Positions 1,750 through 26,418 of a DNA stretch of 34,604 nucleotides are shown here, piece after piece (the first letter of the stretch is position 1; every line of letters begins with the position of its first letter). A program made the position numbers and the translations under genes. Under the pieces are notes generated by a model. The model was not told the DNA's origin. It searched no databases and was given only the letters and a program-made list of their open reading frames with translations. Origin of the DNA: a virus; IMG/VR virus record IMGVR_UViG_3300044731_000977, positions 1 to 34,604 of that record; one strand, given 5' to 3'.

Positions 1750-2328
1750 ATGGAACCGATCACGCTGGCGGAGCTCTTCGAGCGGTATGGAGACCTGCGG
1801 AATCTCGACAAAAAAACGATGGTGCTCTACTCGATGCTGCTCACCCGCCTGCGGGCGTTCCTGGGGCACGAGCCCAGCACTGCCGACCTCGACGATCTGA
1901 CGATCTCGCGGTATCTCAGGCATCGTGCCACCAACGTCTACCGAGGGCAGCCGATCCGCCCGGCGAGCGTCCAGAAGGACAAAGTGATGATCGCCGCCGT
2001 CTGGAACCTCGCCGCCCGAAAGCGATGGGTGAGCGAGTTCCCCGAGCTCCCCCGCATCAAAGTCGCCAAGAGCATCCCGACCGGGCGGGCCTACACCGCC
2101 GAAGACGTGGCCGCACTCATCCGCCGGGCTCGCCGGCACGACCGGGGGACAGCCCTCGGCGTGGTGGTGGAGCACGCTCATCTACATGGCGTACTGCACG
2201 GGCGAGCGGGCGACCGCCCTAATGTCGCTCCGCTGGGCCGAACTCGACACTGCCCGCCGCCGGGTCATTTTCCTAGGTGCGACCCGCAAGGGATCGACCC
2301 GCGACATCGAGCGGGACTTCACCGCTGA
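1750..2328 (+). pseudogene. Tyrosine integrase, N-terminal part, frameshifted
   Basis: Residues 1-130 read as the SAM-like core-binding domain of a phage tyrosine recombinase (KTMVLYSMLLTRLRAF, a helical DISRYL-type segment, then IKVAKSIPTGRAYTAEDVAA, the usual linker into the catalytic domain). An AGGGAG site precedes the ATG. After about codon 133 the frame gives nonsense. Dropping one G from the GGGGG run at 2144-2148 restores the expected text (WWWSTLIYMAYCTGERATAL) in the next frame, so the gene is one integrase of about 310 residues split by a single-base change. A sequencing error, a real mutation or recoding are all possible. Confidence 0.75.
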
Positions 2329-2680
2329 CCTCGCCAAGTTCCTCGAAGCCCGCCGCCGCCGGCCCGAGGATCTGGTGTGGCCGTGGGATCGCCACCGTGG
2401 GAGCCTCTGGACGAGCCTCAAACTGCTCTGCCGGCTGGCAGGGGTGCGGTATCGGGGCTTCCACGGTCTGAGGCGTACACGGGCTTCCTACGCCGCCCTG
2501 GCGGGCGGTACGGCTGCCGCCACCCAGGTGCTCGATCACAGCGATCCCAGGCTCCAAGAGCGGTACGTAGACCCTCAGATATGCCCCAGCGAGCAGAGCG
2601 GGGTCGAAGTCATGCCGTCGCTGCGGCTGGACGATCCGCCCGCCGGGCAGGAGGAGCCGCCAGCCGAGCCGGCGGCGTAG
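2186..2680 (+). pseudogene. int: Tyrosine integrase, catalytic part
   Basis: This frame holds the catalytic domain: the first catalytic Arg in TGERATALMSLRW, the HxxR box in FHGLRRTRASYA, the second His in VLDHSDPRL and the nucleophilic Tyr in QERYVDP. All motifs are intact. The ORF continues upstream of its ATG without a stop far enough to join the N-terminal half at 2144-2148. The C-terminal tail is Pro/Glu/Ala rich. The enzyme would integrate and, with the excisionase-like protein, excise the phage. It lacks the look of an integron IntI. It may not be made as it stands because the ATG at 2186 has no clear ribosome-binding site. Confidence 0.8.
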
Positions 2681-19537: not shown

Positions 19538-20540
19538 GCTGCCTCAGATACTCGCGAATCTCTGCGGCACGCGACCGGGCAAGCGAACGCCTCGCCACCT
19601 CGATCTCCTGCTGCTGCCGGTACTGGTCGAATGACCGCTGGGCGACCTTCACATCGGCGTCGGGATACGCAGGAAACGTCACCGGCCCGACATCGAGTAG
19701 CGAGTCAATCCGCTGGATCGTCCGCACGCTGCGACCGTCCTCGACCGCCCACGAGTCGCCGCCGCTTGGCACGGTGAACGAGAACGACGAGCCCTTCACG
19801 ATGCCCGCCCGAATGTTGCTCGCGATGTCGCGACCGTAGGTCGTGTCGGGCACCGGGAACTCATACCGCAGCCCAACCTCATCGACCGTCATCCGCAGCG
19901 TGCCGGGGTAGCGGGCGAGGGGGTAGTTCGGGTCGTGATTCCACAGGGCTCGCGTCTCCAGCGGCTTCCGCCTGCCGCGACGCTCGGCGACCAGCCCGAA
20001 CGCACCGGGGTCGATCCGCTCCACGAAGTCGCCCAGGTCGAGGGAGAGCACGCCGAACTTCGCTGCGTAGCCAACGACGTACTCCCGCTCGCTGCCGTCA
20101 TCCTCGCTGCGGCTCTCGACCGCAAGCAGCGGCACCGCCGACTCGATCTCGTCAATCGCCAAGGAACGCCGTTCGATGTTGCCCATGATGCTCCTGCCTT
20201 CCTCGTCTGCCGCTTCGATCTGCTTGGTCAGTTTGCTCGCCCACGCTTGCCCCGGATCGCCGCCCCACAGAGCCCACGCGATCCGGCCCGCACTTGGGAA
20301 CCCGTCTTGTCCGGGGCTCCAGCCCTCGCCCTGCTTGTCCACTTCGTGCCGGGCGAAGTAGCTCGCCATCCGCTTCGCCGTGTCGGGCGAGATATTCGTT
20401 CCGTTCGACAGGTCTCTCGCTCGGGCAACGCCGACTGCCGTGCCGCCTCGGCCGTACTCGTCTCGCCACGCGAGCCCTTTCGCTGCTTCCTCCTGCACGC
20501 CAGCCGGCGGGCTGAAGTCGATGTGGTCATACTTAGCCAC
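19527..20540 (-). CDS. Prohead protease fused to an N-terminal conserved domain
   Basis: The C-terminal two thirds are an HK97-type (S78) prohead protease: VVGYAAKFGVLSLDLGDFVE, the catalytic His in ALWNHDPNYPLARYPGT, and the Ser in VKGSSFSFTVP, ending with a helical tail. Residues 1-110 (YDHIDFSPPAGVQEEAAKGL ... GRIAWALWGGDPGQAW) match a domain often seen as a separate phage protein or fused to head proteins. I chose the GTG at 20540, which overlaps the portal stop. The tail segment 290-337 is a basic coiled coil that may anchor it to the scaffold. Confidence 0.8.
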   Translation of the reverse strand: MAKYDHIDFSPPAGVQEEAAKGLAWRDEYGRGGTAVGVARARDLSNGTNISPDTAKRMASYFARHEVDKQGEGWSPGQDGFPSAGRIAWALWGGDPGQAWASKLTKQIEAADEEGRSIMGNIERRSLAIDEIESAVPLLAVESRSEDDGSEREYVVGYAAKFGVLSLDLGDFVERIDPGAFGLVAERRGRRKPLETRALWNHDPNYPLARYPGTLRMTVDEVGLRYEFPVPDTTYGRDIASNIRAGIVKGSSFSFTVPSGGDSWAVEDGRSVRTIQRIDSLLDVGPVTFPAYPDADVKVAQRSFDQYRQQQEIEVARRSLARSRAAEIREYLRQHGR

Positions 20541-22413
20541 CCTTCCGCCTCCGAGGCTTCCGCTTCGGCTTGCCGTAGGCGTTCTCCTCAACCGGCGGCG
20601 GCTCGGGCAGCGGGTCGATCTTCGTGAGCGTCGAGACCTTGTGACCGACTTGCGTCTCGGTCGGTCGCCATCCGCCGCTCACTTCTTCGTAGACCGTGAT
20701 GAGGGCGGCCGGGTCTTCCTCGGTCGCGTCGATCTTGAAGTCGGTGCCGGGGATGTCCAGTGTGCCGTAGTCCATCACATGGTCGATCCGCCCGCGAGCA
20801 CGACCGCCTGGCGAATCCCACGACACGAAGTCGCCCTCCGCGACGCTGCCGGGGGCGGCACGCGACTCAGCGGTTTCCTCGGCGGCAGGAGCCTCGGGCT
20901 CGGGGGCAGGCGGCTCCGCAACCGGCTCGGGAGCGAGGGGCTGCGTGCTCGTGCCCGCGAGGATGCGATCAACCGCAGCCGGTGGGATGCTCGGGAACGA
21001 TGCGAGGATCAACGCCCCAGCCGCGTCAGTGGTCAGGAGCCCGGCACTGACTTGCGTCAGGATCTCTAGGATGCCGGTGATCTGGGCACCGTTGAGCGAA
21101 ACGTCGGCGAGTTGCGGTTCATCAGCCTGGGCCGGGGCGGCATCCGCGACCGGCTCGGGAGCCGGGGCGGTCTCGTCCACCACGATCTCTTCGACCACGG
21201 TCGCGGGCATCGGCTCGGGAGCAGCCGCCGCCTTATCGAGCGTGGTCATGTTCAACTGCACGAACCTCACATCGCCGCTTTCGACCGGGTTGAGATTCTC
21301 CAGCGAGCGGATCTCATTCACGCTCAACACGCCAAGGTTCCACATCGTGTTGTAGTAGCTGGCTCGCCCGGCAGCGTCGGCCCGCAGCACGCCGCGAGTG
21401 TCGAACTCCGCGAAGTATTCATCGTCGCCTTCAAGCAAGTCGCGAGCGATCGAAGACTCGATGCGACGCAGATACGGCATCAGCCCGTTCGTCAGGAAGT
21501 CGAGCGATTGCTGTTCGATATTCGAGAACGACGAACGCGTGAGGTCGCCCACCAGATGCGGCGGCACGCCGAAGAGCCGACACACTTCCTCGACTTGAAA
21601 CCGGCGAGCCTCAAGGAACTGGCTCTCTTGGTTGTTCCCGCCGAGCTCCGAAACTTTGAGCCCGCCCTGCAATACTGCCGTTCGGTTGCTTCGGTCTGGG
21701 CCGCGATGAGCCCTCTCCCACTGATTCCGCGTGTTCTCAGCCGCCTCGGGCGAGAGCATCTGATCGGTGGAAAGGATCACGCCCGGCCGGGCACCATTCC
21801 CGAAGAACGTCGCCCCGTGGATCTCGCACGCCCGAGCCAGCCCAATCGCATCGCGGGCGAGCTCAATCGTGCTCATCCCGTTCACGCCGTCATCCGACAT
21901 CCCCCGCACCGACATCACCGCGTCTTGCGTGTAGACCGTCGAAGAGCCCGACGCCTCGCGGTACGTGTACCGCAGCCGGTTGTTTTCAAGTTGCTCAGTC
22001 TTCACCCGGCTCGGATGCAACGGCACGATCTCGCTGATCGCCCCGCCCGTGTAGACCTTCTCGTCAAGGGCGAACCCGTGCGAGAGCAAGTGCAGCATCA
22101 TCTGCTCACGCCACTCGAACGAGGTCTGCCACGAGTTCGGCTGCGTGTGCAAGAGCCGATAGAGCGGATGCTCGCGGGCGACCTCTTTGCCACCACCCGG
22201 AAGCCGGCGGTAGAGGTGCAGCGGCAGACCGGCGACGCTGGTCGAAAGCACGCGGATGCACGCCAGCACCACGGTCGACCGGAGAGCCGTCTCGGCGTCC
22301 ACCTTCACGCCGCTCGGATTGCGGTTGCTCGAAGCCCAACTGCCAGACTCGTAATCCCAGTTGCGGGAGTCGTCGCCGGGGAGCCAGAGGATGCGGTGTG
22401 CGTTGGCGATCAT
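20533..22413 (-). CDS. Portal protein with extended C-terminus (626 aa)
   Basis: Residues 1-400 are a HK97-family portal: TALRSTVVLACIRVLSTSVA, then PLYRLLHTQPNSWQTSFEWR, FFGNGARPGVILS and VEEVCRLFGVPPHLVGDLTR. The C-terminal 220 residues are extra: a Pro/Ala/Glu linker, a segment NGAQITGILEILTQVSAGLL common at the ends of some portals, a second Pro-rich linker, and GDFVSWDSPGGRARGRIDHV, which resembles the DUF2945/Tudor-like domain. The end is very basic (KPKRKPRRRKGG). It is coupled to TerL by ATGA. The added module may recruit the protease or DNA. Confidence 0.85.
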   Translation of the reverse strand: MIANAHRILWLPGDDSRNWDYESGSWASSNRNPSGVKVDAETALRSTVVLACIRVLSTSVAGLPLHLYRRLPGGGKEVAREHPLYRLLHTQPNSWQTSFEWREQMMLHLLSHGFALDEKVYTGGAISEIVPLHPSRVKTEQLENNRLRYTYREASGSSTVYTQDAVMSVRGMSDDGVNGMSTIELARDAIGLARACEIHGATFFGNGARPGVILSTDQMLSPEAAENTRNQWERAHRGPDRSNRTAVLQGGLKVSELGGNNQESQFLEARRFQVEEVCRLFGVPPHLVGDLTRSSFSNIEQQSLDFLTNGLMPYLRRIESSIARDLLEGDDEYFAEFDTRGVLRADAAGRASYYNTMWNLGVLSVNEIRSLENLNPVESGDVRFVQLNMTTLDKAAAAPEPMPATVVEEIVVDETAPAPEPVADAAPAQADEPQLADVSLNGAQITGILEILTQVSAGLLTTDAAGALILASFPSIPPAAVDRILAGTSTQPLAPEPVAEPPAPEPEAPAAEETAESRAAPGSVAEGDFVSWDSPGGRARGRIDHVMDYGTLDIPGTDFKIDATEEDPAALITVYEEVSGGWRPTETQVGHKVSTLTKIDPLPEPPPVEENAYGKPKRKPRRRKGG

Positions 22414-24044
22414 AGGATCAAGATGGAGGGTTCGGCGGCGGGCTTGTTCGTGATCTGCGAAGACTCCCAGCCACCGAGAGCGAAGATCAGAGCCACGATC
22501 CCGTCGATGCGACCCGTGCTCTTCTTCTTCACCGGCCGCACGTCCTCAAACGAGTTCGTCTCCACCGTCACATTCGCCGACATCCACGAGAGCACCGGGT
22601 TGCCACCGTGGCGTATCCGGTTCTGAAGCACGAGCGATTCGAGCCGCTTCGTGCCCGAACTCATGCCCCGGAACCCTTGGCTCCATCCTGACACTTTGAG
22701 CCCCGCCCCTTGCAGTTCCACGGCAAGCTGCACCGCCCCGGTGAGATCCATGTAGACGTGCTCGATCTGGTGCGTCTTGGCGTACTCCAGCACGAACTCC
22801 CGAATCTTCGAGTGGTCGATCACGTTCCCGTCGGTGGCGGTGATGTACCCCGAGTTGACCCAGTGCTGGAACGGCTGGCGGTCGGTTCGCTCTCGCTCCA
22901 TGATGAGATCGCGGGGAGCCCAGAACATCGCATCGACCTCGAACTCGTCGTTCTCGCACGGGTAGAGAGCGACCATCGCGGAAAGGTCGGTGCTCTTCGA
23001 GAGATCCATCCCGAGGATGCACTTCCGCCCGGCGAAGGGCGAGGTCGGGCCACCCGAGCACGCGGCCCACTTCTCGGGATCGAGCCAGCGGTTCGTGCTC
23101 TCAGTCCAGACCCCGAGCGAGTAGCGGAGCCACCCGTTCAGCTTGGTCGCTTTGTTCTTCGCTTCGCGGGCATCCGCCGCGAACGATTCCTCGGTCATGG
23201 TGACGCCCATGCCGGGATTCACCCGCCGCCACACCGCCGGGTCGAAGTAGTCCTCCGAGCCGTCAGTTCTCGCCCCGAAAATCTTCCCGTAGAAGCGGGG
23301 ATCGTAGTTCGGGTCGGCGGCGGTCAACTCCGCGTACTCGTGTTGCTCCCAGCAAATCGTGTCGCGGCGGTCGCCGGCCGTGGTGATCGTGCAGAGCAGC
23401 GGCTCCCGCCTGGAGCGACCCGAGTACCGCAACGCCTCGAACAGCCGGCGATCGGGCCACGCGTGCAACTCGTCGCAGAAGACGAACGAATAGGACGGGC
23501 CTTCCGCCGCCCCGGCATCTCGCGAGATCACCCGCAGGCTCGATCCCGTGCTCATGCACACGATCGTCTTCCGCGAATCGACCACTTCGAGCGACGCCGC
23601 CAGTTCCGGCGACCGCTTCACCATCGCGGCGGTTTCGTCAAAGATGATCGCCGCTTGGTTGCGATCCTTCGCCGCGATGCACCCGAGCTCGCCCTCACCC
23701 TCCATCAAGAGATGCCAGATCGAGAGGCACGAGAGGAGCGTGCTCTTCGCGTTCTTCTTGGGAACCTCCAGATACGCGAGCCGATACCGCCGCAGCCCGT
23801 CCTCGGTTCGCCACCCGTAGAGCGGCTCGATCACGTCCTGCTTGTGCCACTCCAAAAGCCGCATCGGCTCGCCGGCCTTCGCGGTCGGGGAGTCTTTCGT
23901 GTGGCAGCACACCGACTCCAAGAATCCGACCACGAGATCGGCGGCGTCTTGATCGTAGGTGTAGCCCGCGACCCGCTCAGGCTCACGCCTTGCGGGCAGC
24001 CTTGAGGGCTCGGAACTTGTCGATCGCGCTTTCCGCCTTGGCAT
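22410..24044 (-). CDS. Terminase large subunit (TerL)
   Basis: The ATPase domain has the Walker A variant EVPKKNAKST (residues 93-102), typical of HK97/P27-type terminases, and Walker B SYSFVFCDELH (residues 184-194) with the catalytic Glu. The nuclease domain begins near residue 345 (ILGMDLSKSTDLSAMVALYP) and ends with the Asp in KSTGRIDGIVAL. 544 residues is normal. It cuts and pumps DNA into the head through the portal. The start overlaps TerS by 62 bases; no better in-frame ATG follows before the conserved region. Confidence 0.92.
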   Translation of the reverse strand: MPRRKARSTSSEPSRLPARREPERVAGYTYDQDAADLVVGFLESVCCHTKDSPTAKAGEPMRLLEWHKQDVIEPLYGWRTEDGLRRYRLAYLEVPKKNAKSTLLSCLSIWHLLMEGEGELGCIAAKDRNQAAIIFDETAAMVKRSPELAASLEVVDSRKTIVCMSTGSSLRVISRDAGAAEGPSYSFVFCDELHAWPDRRLFEALRYSGRSRREPLLCTITTAGDRRDTICWEQHEYAELTAADPNYDPRFYGKIFGARTDGSEDYFDPAVWRRVNPGMGVTMTEESFAADAREAKNKATKLNGWLRYSLGVWTESTNRWLDPEKWAACSGGPTSPFAGRKCILGMDLSKSTDLSAMVALYPCENDEFEVDAMFWAPRDLIMERERTDRQPFQHWVNSGYITATDGNVIDHSKIREFVLEYAKTHQIEHVYMDLTGAVQLAVELQGAGLKVSGWSQGFRGMSSGTKRLESLVLQNRIRHGGNPVLSWMSANVTVETNSFEDVRPVKKKSTGRIDGIVALIFALGGWESSQITNKPAAEPSILIL

Positions 24045-24480
24045 CCGGTTCCACCTTCAGCGAGGCACGAGCGGCAGGCGAGAGACCGAAGTCGCTCTCC
24101 AGTTGCCGCAGTTGCCCGGCGAGCTTGTGGGCGATCGATACCTCGGGCCGCTGGGCGATGTACTTGATCTCGCCGCCGTCATTGAGGATGGGGTACGTGT
24201 CGCCTTCCGCCTTGAGTTTGACCCGCACCGCAAGCCACCACTCCCAGGTATCGCAGTACCGGGCGAGTGCCTCGACATCGGCCCGCGTCATCACCCGCGT
24301 CGCCTGGAGCATCGGCAGCAACTCGCCCCACCGGGCGGCGGCGACTTCGCCCAGGTGTGGCGGCATCGCGATGCCATCGGCCGGCGGCTGCGGCTCGGCG
24401 TCGTTCAACTTTTGCTTGCCGGGGTTCCCGCGAAGGATCTTTAGTTCGGTCGGGATCGGTTTCGGCCCGCGTCTTCCCAT
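23983..24480 (-). CDS. Terminase small subunit (TerS, P27 family)
   Basis: The start is diagnostic of the P27 family: GRRGPKPIPTELKILRGNPG, then LGEVAAARWGELLPMLQATR, a DVEALARYCDTWEWW helix and a C-terminal KLAGQLRQLESDFGLSPAAR. 165 residues. It recognises the packaging site on phage DNA and feeds TerL. A GAGGTAA site precedes the ATG. A cluster of TACC repeats lies just upstream. Confidence 0.9.
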   Translation of the reverse strand: MGRRGPKPIPTELKILRGNPGKQKLNDAEPQPPADGIAMPPHLGEVAAARWGELLPMLQATRVMTRADVEALARYCDTWEWWLAVRVKLKAEGDTYPILNDGGEIKYIAQRPEVSIAHKLAGQLRQLESDFGLSPAARASLKVEPDAKAESAIDKFRALKAARKA

Positions 24481-24536
24481 GCTTTACCTCACTGCCGCTT
24501 TTTGGGGCAGGAAAAACGGCGGCGGATTGCGGCCCC

Positions 24537-24570
24537 TACCCGGCTACCGTTACCGTCGCTTACCCTTACC
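24537..24570 (-). promoter_or_regulatory. TACC repeat cluster upstream of TerS, possible cosB/pac
   Basis: On the plus strand TACC occurs at 24537, 24545, 24551, 24561 and 24567 (GGTA on the gene strand), with spacings of 8, 6, 10 and 6 bases, two of them as TTACC-type extensions. It lies in the 159-base gap between TerS and an HNH gene. Iterated short sites beside terS are where small terminase subunits bind in cos and pac phages. A hairpin-like CTGCC...GGCAG pair with T runs lies between this and the TerS start. Function is inferred. Confidence 0.4.
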
Positions 24571-24639
24571 CATAGGAACATCGGGTTTTCCTCAGACGTG
24601 CGATTTTAAGAACAGATGTACCCTACCCCGTTGCCACGC

Positions 24640-25677
24640 TCACGATCTCGCAAATGCCAATCGCCTCTGCCCATCCCACTTGTTGCCTCTTTCTGAGTTG
24701 CACTTGCGGTGAGCGCATTTGACATTATGCCAATCATGATCGCCGCCCTTGCTGAGAGGGATGGGGTAATGATCGACTGTTGCTTCCATCGGGTGGTTGT
24801 TTGCCCAATGCCTCAAGCATTTCTTTTTGCACACATGGCATCGCCAGGCATCTCGCTCAAACACCTTGCGTCGCGTAACGCCCGCAACGTAGTTCCCTCC
24901 GTACTTCCTGCACCTCTTGCGGTATGTGCCCTTTTCTCGCTTCTCAATCCTTCGCTCTTCCCTCTTTGCTTCTACTAAGCACTTGTTGCACATCTTGCGA
25001 CGCGACACGCCGCGTGCAACGCATGGGCTTCCGCACTTGAAGCATGCGACCTCGCTCTCTGATTTAGTCAAGCACTCTATTGAGCAGAATCTCGCCTCTG
25101 GGCCATGAGCCGGATCGCCACATATCTCACACAACTTCCTTGCGTATAGCCTGCTCACCTTGCGTAGAAACGCGTGCATATTGCCCCGCATCTCTTGGAT
25201 CGGCTTCCGCGATGGAGCACATGCCCAGCGACCACCTCGATGCCAGATCGACTCTAGCTGCCCAGTGCGATCCCAGGATTGAATGCCCTCTTTCTTGGCA
25301 GCGTTGTAGCACTCACTGCCGCAATACTTGCTCTGGTTCGGATTGAGTTGAGATCCGCACCGCAAACACTTCCTGCCCTTGAGCTTCCTCTGCGGCTTCG
25401 GCTTCCACTCGCCCGACTTGATCTTGTCCTTGCGGGCCTGGATGTAATCCTGCCTCGCCAACTCAGAGCAAGCCGAGCAATGCCGCGACCTCGCCATCGC
25501 ATTGGCACCGCTGGCCGTAAACTCGCAGCCGCACCGTTCGCACCGCTTCGACTCTTCGGCCGGCAGCCTGCCCTGCTTCCTTGCCTTGCACCGCTGCTGC
25601 TTGCAGCACTCGGGGCAGGAAACCATGTCCTTGCCCTTGAGCGTCACCCAATGCGAGCCACACCTCAAACAAGCCAT
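24640..25677 (-). CDS. HNH endonuclease with many zinc-ribbon pairs (345 aa)
   Basis: At least five zinc-ribbon-like Cys pairs are visible (CLRCGSHW, CPECC, CERCGCEF, CLRCGSQL with CGSEC, CEICGD with CSIEC, CFKCGS with CNKC), then a C-terminal HNH fold: RCHVCKKKCL, ATVDHYPIPLSKGGDHDW and HNVKCAHRKCN. It is basic, and its base composition is visibly less GC-rich than its neighbours, as in inserted homing endonucleases. I chose the ATG at 25677, which has a perfect AAGGAGG site 7 bases upstream. It sits beside terS, as phage HNH genes often do. Confidence 0.8.
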   Translation of the reverse strand: MACLRCGSHWVTLKGKDMVSCPECCKQQRCKARKQGRLPAEESKRCERCGCEFTASGANAMARSRHCSACSELARQDYIQARKDKIKSGEWKPKPQRKLKGRKCLRCGSQLNPNQSKYCGSECYNAAKKEGIQSWDRTGQLESIWHRGGRWACAPSRKPIQEMRGNMHAFLRKVSRLYARKLCEICGDPAHGPEARFCSIECLTKSESEVACFKCGSPCVARGVSRRKMCNKCLVEAKREERRIEKREKGTYRKRCRKYGGNYVAGVTRRKVFERDAWRCHVCKKKCLRHWANNHPMEATVDHYPIPLSKGGDHDWHNVKCAHRKCNSERGNKWDGQRRLAFARS

Positions 25678-25679
25678 TT

Positions 25680-25717
25680 GCCACCTCCTTGTGGGTGGCA
25701 CTAGTGTACTAAGTACA
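25680..25717 (-). promoter_or_regulatory. Ribosome-site hairpin and palindromes before the HNH gene
   Basis: On the message GCCACC (25694-25699) pairs with GGTGGC (25680-25685) around the loop CACAAGGA, so the AAGGAGG ribosome-binding site lies in the loop and stem just before the ATG at 25677. Immediately upstream are a perfect 8-bp palindrome CACTAGTG (25699-25706) and a 13-base palindrome TGTACTAAGTACA (25705-25717), operator-like. Translation and transcription of this HNH gene may both be restrained. Confidence 0.45.
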
Positions 25718-25727
25718 GGTGGTTTTC

Positions 25728-26057
25728 CTAGCGACTTTCTTTCGCCGTTTTCCGATTGTGGCATCGCATACACAAGCACTGCCCGCCGGCAACGTCATAC
25801 CGGCTTCGCCCATCGCGGCAGACCTCGCTGCCGTGTACCACAGGCGATACATGGTCGGCGTGAGCCTCACGCCGCACAGCACACACCCGCCCGCAGTCCT
25901 GGCACTGCCAGGCGTCACGCGTCAGCACCGCGAGCCGCCACGCCTTGTGGCTGGCTGAGCAGTACCCACGGGCTGCCGCGTTGGGTCGCTGCTCTGCCGC
26001 AGTGACGCTAGCGGAGCGGAGTCGCGGCGGCCTGTGAGTGGGTATGCGAGTGGGCAC
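25728..26057 (-). CDS. HNH endonuclease, terminase-associated type (109 aa)
   Basis: The HNH motif is intact: LTRDAWQCQDCGRVC, then HADHVSPVVHGSEVC and CLCMRCHNRKTAKE, with two Cys pairs for the structural zinc. It matches the HNH proteins encoded next to terminase genes in HK97-like phages, which assist cos cutting. I chose the GTG at 26057, four bases after the upstream stop; no clear ribosome-binding site is visible, so coupled translation is likely. The reading continues upstream in frame, but that part lies inside another gene. Confidence 0.8.
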   Translation of the reverse strand: MPTRIPTHRPPRLRSASVTAAEQRPNAAARGYCSASHKAWRLAVLTRDAWQCQDCGRVCAVRREAHADHVSPVVHGSEVCRDGRSRYDVAGGQCLCMRCHNRKTAKESR

Positions 26058-26061
26058 GGGC

Positions 26062-26418
26062 TCACGACTTGAACGAGACCACGCCGACAGTGCCGGTCGA
26101 GTTCGTGGTGCCGCTGACGATCCGCACGTAGGGAACTGCGAACACGGCATCGGGAAGCGAGTAGATCCGCCCATCGGTCGTGCTCGGGGCGAGGGTGATG
26201 TCAGCGGCGGAACCGTCCGCTCCGTAGACGCGGCGATACGGGCCAGCCTCGGCGATCGCACCCCAGCACTGGAGGGTAGCGGATGCCGTGACCATCGTGC
26301 CAACCGAGATGCAGCCGCCGGCCATGTCATCGACGCGGATGGTGGTCGCGTCGGCGGTTGCCGTCCCGAGGGTGATTGAGACGTTACGCGTGCGTCGCTT
26401 GATCTTGATCTCGCTCAT
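26062..26418 (-). CDS. Hypothetical beta-rich protein (118 aa)
   Basis: I do not recognise a family. It begins with basic residues (SEIKIKRRTRNVSITLGTAT) and continues as Thr/Ala/Gly-rich beta text (FAVPYVRIVSGTTNSTG), the look of a small virion protein. The ATG has a GGAGG site. It lies outside the structural module, between the cassette-like array and the HNH genes, and could be a decoration protein displaced from the main operon. Confidence 0.6.
   Translation of the reverse strand: MSEIKIKRRTRNVSITLGTATADATTIRVDDMAGGCISVGTMVTASATLQCWGAIAEAGPYRRVYGADGSAADITLAPSTTDGRIYSLPDAVFAVPYVRIVSGTTNSTGTVGVVSFKS

Follow-up and report, generated by a model that had tools for sequence, protein, structure and literature searches.

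Positions 24533 to 24629 of the DNA analysed here, a stretch of 34,604 nucleotides that we call the window, are very probably the cos site of a phage lineage of the HK97 type. The observation that carries this conclusion is that many independent relatives have virion-like ends at the homologues of positions 24574 and 24585, inside a conserved motif. Gene content also supports a cos site, in that a TerL and a small HNH protein, both of HK97 type, are encoded in the gene order of HK97, i.e., HNH, cos, terS, terL and portal. For a broad group of apparently uncultured phages, this reading settles where base one lies and how the DNA is packaged. It also shows that the contig termini in a public collection are enough to read virion ends, with no need for reads. 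The derivation of termini from virome reads is already established (PhageTermVirome, PMC8443750). HK97-like cos sites are a known kind, to which the present one adds a new example from uncultivated phages.

The features discussed below are as follows, with window coordinates.

24574, minus strand: first base (+1) of the terS-side virion end, placed by the identity of locus L004 and by the contig starts of 24 of 61 relatives
24575 to 24584, minus strand: putative cos overhang CCGATGTTCC, predicted to be a 10-nt 3' overhang, matching the bases that the homologous left and right ends leave uncovered
24585, minus strand: last duplex base of the predicted HNH-side virion end, with homologous ends in L133, L170, L171 and G018
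24585 to 24593, minus strand: core GAGGAAAAC directly before the overhang, kept intact or almost intact by most relatives that span the junction
24533 to 24556, minus strand: right arm, +19 to +42, with GGTAAC (+21) and GGGTAGGGG, a likely TerS binding site by analogy with +15 to +29 of HK97
24620 to 24629, minus strand: left-arm G-rich element GGGGTAGGGT, near -50, from the left-arm comparison
24537 to 24570, plus strand: five TACC units, at +5 to +38 of the right arm; among relatives, GGTA is frequent only at +21 and +35
23983 to 24480, minus strand: terS, small terminase subunit (Terminase_4, E 2e-21; phrog_83, E 1e-36)
22410 to 24044, minus strand: terL, HK97-like large terminase subunit, overlapping terS by 62 bases; the start of the ORF may lie further in
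24640 to 25680, minus strand: large accessory zinc-ribbon HNH gene, its start taken from relatives beginning MACMKCGS (the listed ORF extends to 25779)
25728 to 26330, minus strand: small HNH ORF with the domain in its C-terminal half (phrog_589/144, as for the HNH proteins of HK97 and AH07)

Contig ends stood in for read starts in our analysis, on the reasoning that assembly halts where a linear virion molecule ends. Searching IMG/VR with TerS provided 80 loci among the matches listed (80 of 161 relatives), and in 61 of these the upstream contig end lay within the fetched flank. An earlier reading of this DNA, made from the sequence alone (the sequence-only reading), had suggested looking for piled-up read starts near the repeats described below. 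Run on contig ends instead, this check placed 24 of the 61 upstream ends, among the matches listed and aligned on the arm motif, at exactly one homologous base, which is 24574 in the window. The 24 contigs come from 23 datasets and fall into 21 clusters (less than 90% identity over +1 to +42), with a median pairwise identity of 0.55. The automatic anchor assigned 21 of these starts, and the other three (L020, L029 and L041) were assigned by register or against spanning relatives. Locus L004 is identical to the window from 24574 onward; therefore, +1 is position 24574. The start of L071 lies one base earlier than the shared base.

Ten of the 24 contigs (L037, L045, L048, L049, L063, L074, L075, L077, L079 and L081) have terS separated from cos by an extra HNH gene about 1 kb long. 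Their starts are 916 to 1094 bases from terS, yet still at the motif, and the ends therefore track the motif rather than terS. As a control, 26 downstream contig ends (26 entered of 27 counted) have no common distance from terS. Of the 80 loci, 8 (L023, L024, L038, L054, L059, L060, L076 and L080) lack an assigned +1, and these were excluded from the site set. Among them, L054 begins 4 bases and L059 begins 5 bases within the cos site, and L038 and L023 start some 14 to 20 bases outside it.

On the HNH side, a search with the small HNH protein gave 80 loci among the matches listed (80 of 105 HNH relatives), 28 of them with a downstream contig end in reach. Three of these 28 ends (L133, L170 and L171), again among the matches listed, lie just after ...AAAAC or ...AATAC, which is the homologue of 24585. 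An exact-pattern search for right ends within the window's own close group returned none, and the pattern of the L071 lineage gave five matches, one of which (G018) ends at the site. Two contigs have both ends. G018 (48,995 bp, the contig behind L071) starts at the terS-side position and on the HNH side breaks off at GAGAAAAAC, and the other end of G021 (35,176 bp, the contig behind L170) is just upstream of a terS-like start.

By homology, the stretch missing between the two types of end is 10 bases long (24575 to 24584 in the window). Considered per lineage, the gap is 9 bases in G018 alone, 10 when the left starts of its close relatives L048, L049 and L066 are used, and 11, by homology, in the G021 group, so sequence comparison puts it at 10 bases, plus or minus one. 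End polishing removes 3' overhangs. The 10 bases fit a 10-nt 3' overhang, a polarity suggested by the fact that the bases are missing rather than shared. A published guide (PMC5000459) describes assemblies that run from cohesive end to cohesive end, often without the overhang.

It is important to emphasize which findings count against a cos site. The ends are taken from assemblies, the share of HNH-side ends at the site is small, and none of those ends belongs to the window's own close group. The gap between the two ends also varies among lineages, from 9 to 11 bases. The TerS protein lies outside the TerS family of HK97. Finally, three near-identical contigs (L123, L124 and L125) halt at one base inside a terL-like gene through which L126 continues; near-identical contigs can share an assembly break, and we regard this common stop as such a break, not as a cos end.

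To describe the conserved anatomy, we reduced 73 sites (72 loci and the window) to 35 non-redundant ones. The positions that stand out in these are +18 (G), +23 to +25 (TAA) and +33 to +40, where the conservation of +34 to +40 is overstated through its use as the anchor for most sites, and +18 and +23 to +25 were not anchors. The conserved signal in the 35 sites consists of GGTAAC at +21 plus GGGGGTAGGTC at +32 to +42, and the latter is the likeliest candidate for the TerS target by analogy with HK97. Judged by sequence conservation only, the conserved positions +18, +21 to +27 and +32 to +42 are compatible with a short TerS site near +15 to +29. In the left arm, a run of at least 8 G in 10 bases occurs near -50 in 20 of 36 non-redundant arms versus 31 of 1631 random stretches, a count in which the hand-placed arms of L149 and L172 are approximate and that of L149 is visibly off. 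The window's own run reaches 7 G in 10, below this threshold. At this element, 6 of 35 left arms, including that of the window, have GGGTAGG, a direct copy of the right-arm element.

The sequence-only reading had started from five TACC units in 34 bases between the HNH gene and terS, and their positions and spacings are confirmed: the units start at 24537, 24545, 24551, 24561 and 24567 (spacings 8, 6, 10 and 6), flanked by terS (24480..23983, minus strand) and the zinc-ribbon HNH gene (24640..25779, minus strand). The genes are read from the minus strand, so that TACC is GGTA in the sense of terS. For a preset 4-mer, five TACC or five GGTA per 34 bases occurred in none of 300 first-order Markov copies of the window. 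If any 4-mer with at least three different letters is allowed, five per 34 bases occurred in 19 of 60 such copies, and the window itself holds a second cluster of equal kind, of TCGT. The TACC cluster is thus beyond chance if the 4-mer was fixed beforehand and ordinary if it was picked post hoc. Because some 4-mer clusters in so many of the copies, the TACC cluster alone proves little. Two further TACC units at 24618 to 24626 (plus strand), which the sequence-only reading did not mention, belong, when read on the minus strand, to GGGGTAGGGTA near 24629..24619; this places them on the HNH-side arm of the cos site.

Comparison with relatives separates the five units into two groups. GGTA is found at +21 in 15 and at +35 in 27 of the 35 non-redundant sites, versus 3, 1 and 1 of the 35 for +5, +11 and +27. 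All five units are present in one site only, the window's own. Sequence comparison thus presents the fivefold TACC as a private elaboration of the right arm in the window's lineage, with two units as the conserved part. A TerS array made of TACC alone was considered and ruled out, as hardly any other lineage has three of the five units. The iteration that the sequence-only reading had proposed as a TerS signal is not conserved; the units that recur often are those at +21 and +35. Taken as a whole, the sequence-only interpretation is partly supported: it had the place right and the sign only in part.

On the minus strand, the order of genes is small HNH, large zinc-ribbon HNH, cos site, terS, terL, portal, protease and capsid. 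TerL matches the HK97 TerL structure (PDB 6z6d) with E 6.5e-44 and HK97 gp2 with 27% identity and E 1e-49. The small HNH protein is likely, by analogy with HK97, to be the packaging partner of TerL; direct BLASTP of this protein against the HK97 HNH protein gave no significant match. Help from an HNH protein in cos cutting had been proposed for the adjacent large one, and we consider the small upstream protein (25728 to 26330) the more likely helper. The large protein may act in homing, as an endonuclease, or may assist in cutting as an accessory. TerS did not align with HK97 gp1 (phrog_83 versus phrog_5601), and its search against solved structures returned only chance matches. A different TerS family bars the label 'HK97 TerS'. 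It does not bar 'cos', because TerS families vary among cos phages.

Several further observations concern the phage and its relatives. The portal protein (20533 to 22413, minus strand) has a C-terminal extension that matches the Hva1_TUDOR domain. A tyrosine-integrase domain is encoded at 2186 to 2680 (plus strand), opposite to the late genes, which makes a temperate phage probable. In one Phycisphaerales MAG (UBA4658), two contigs, L209 and L210, have a related terS (TerS 82% and 69%), and L210 starts 117 bases upstream of terS and carries a cos-like right arm. One Clostridiales MAG has a distant TerS relative; the binning of phage contigs is weak evidence for a host.

By analogy with HK97, we envisage that TerS would bind the right arm, at GGTAAC (+21) and the element like GGGGGTAGGTC (+32 to +42), and so mark the site. 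Bound TerS may then stall the packaging motor. TerL and the small HNH protein would nick the two strands 10 bases apart, which would leave 10-nt 3' overhangs, and these tails would anneal in the next host.

It might seem that the repeats mark a pac site, at which TerS would bind the TACC units and a first cut would be made nearby, with headful packaging and permuted ends. Some pac systems typically have short iterated sites next to terS, and the contigs of many relatives cross the junction. However, concatemers, circles and prophages would also give contigs of this kind, three of the five TACC units are not conserved, and the ends on both sides keep to a single base or deviate by one, with about 10 bases between them and two contigs showing both. 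We therefore regard a pac site as extremely improbable. From the earlier proposal of a cos or pac site, the cos half stands and the pac half falls, given ends that are fixed on both sides. It had predicted physical virion DNA ends near 24.5 kb, and the homologous contig ends at 24574 and 24585 bear this out. The window's own ends are arbitrary, as it had also predicted: the window runs through the cos junction, and its 34,604 nucleotides have no terminal repeat of at least 10 bases.

A further concern is that the shared ends could be artefacts of assembly or trimming at a mosaic joint, e.g., graph forks or provirus trimming, rather than physical ends. Cos is indeed a mosaic joint, forks do break assemblies, and L123 to L125 share a break that involves no cos. 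Nevertheless, 24 starts in 21 clusters with the low median identity given above are too dissimilar for one fork, and neither forks nor gene-based trimming would leave a constant 10-base gap or contigs with both ends; we judge this explanation very unlikely. There is similarly little chance, and somewhat less of it, that the repeats act in the expression of terS, either as an operator or as codons of a short leader peptide that would begin in the overhang and reach a TGA directly upstream of terS. The minus strand does hold such an ORF, about 30 codons long and preceded by AGGA, from 24582 to just before terS. However, its start codon is missing in most relatives, whose overhang is CAGAAGTTCC or similar, and the leader peptide was ruled out on this ground. 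Scans of the site for promoters, terminators and Rfam families found nothing that would speak for an expression role.

Returning to the cos site, its surroundings are mosaic. In a count over 63 loci, 53 pairs share at least 150 bases on the terS side, and their similarity breaks off within 60 bases of +1 in 31 pairs, at 60 to 200 bases in none and farther away in 22; for the 40 pairs that share the HNH side, the corresponding numbers are 30 within 60 bases, 6 at 60 to 120 and 4 farther away, where pairs are non-independent, similarity in TerS or HNH decided which loci were included, no gaps were allowed in the extension and cos was the sole anchor. Four pairs (L030/L031, L067/L069, L110/L112 and L108/L109) have near-identical DNA on one side of cos and unrelated DNA on the other, and several mosaic pairs have all 10 overhang bases in common. 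Two zinc-ribbon HNH families, distantly alike (about 25 to 43% over parts), are found at cos. The first lies between the packaging HNH gene and cos, and the window's member ends 65 bases before +1. Members of the second are located on the terS side of cos, ahead of terS, and start at +56 to +76. HNH genes between cos and terS were seen in L013, L030, L043, L047, L053, L074, L079 and L081.

The accessory HNH genes are possibly homing endonucleases drawn to cos. More speculatively, and with a probability that we put well below even, cos may be not only a place of cutting but also a recombination joint, at which phages with the same overhang would swap HNH and terminase arms by ligation of cohesive ends during co-infection, and two zinc-ribbon HNH families would have settled on both sides with the DNA next to cos as their target. 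The analysis also points to cos as a site of packaging-module exchange and of HNH gene accumulation. Our literature search, too narrow for a claim of priority, gave no match for arm exchange at cos or for HNH insertions on both sides.

Among known systems, lambda cos resembles the window's site in having site-specific cohesive ends beside terS and iterated sites for the small subunit. Unlike the window's site, lambda has 5' overhangs and works without an HNH partner, as stated in PMC9410871. The best TerS match among named phages is in Pantoea phage AH07 (MZ501270; Terminase_4/phrog_83, 39% identical), in whose record, with ends as deposited, terS starts at base 51 and an HNH gene lies 112 bases from the other end, an arrangement like that proposed here. 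Its cos letters differ from those of the window, and its G-run is below the threshold used. HK97 (Escherichia phage, NC_002167) differs in its TerS family and has cos letters without detectable likeness, and unlike HK97 the window has its packaging HNH gene separated from cos by an accessory HNH gene. According to PMC11331095, the HK97 overhang is a 10-nt 3' overhang and TerS needs +15 to +29; in PMC9410871, a figure legend gives the overhang as 10 nt and the discussion as 12. HK97 resembles the window's lineage in having an HNH gene at one end and terS within 100 bases of the other (at 50 in HK97), a G-run about 40 to 50 bases before the HNH-side end, and a homologous TerL.
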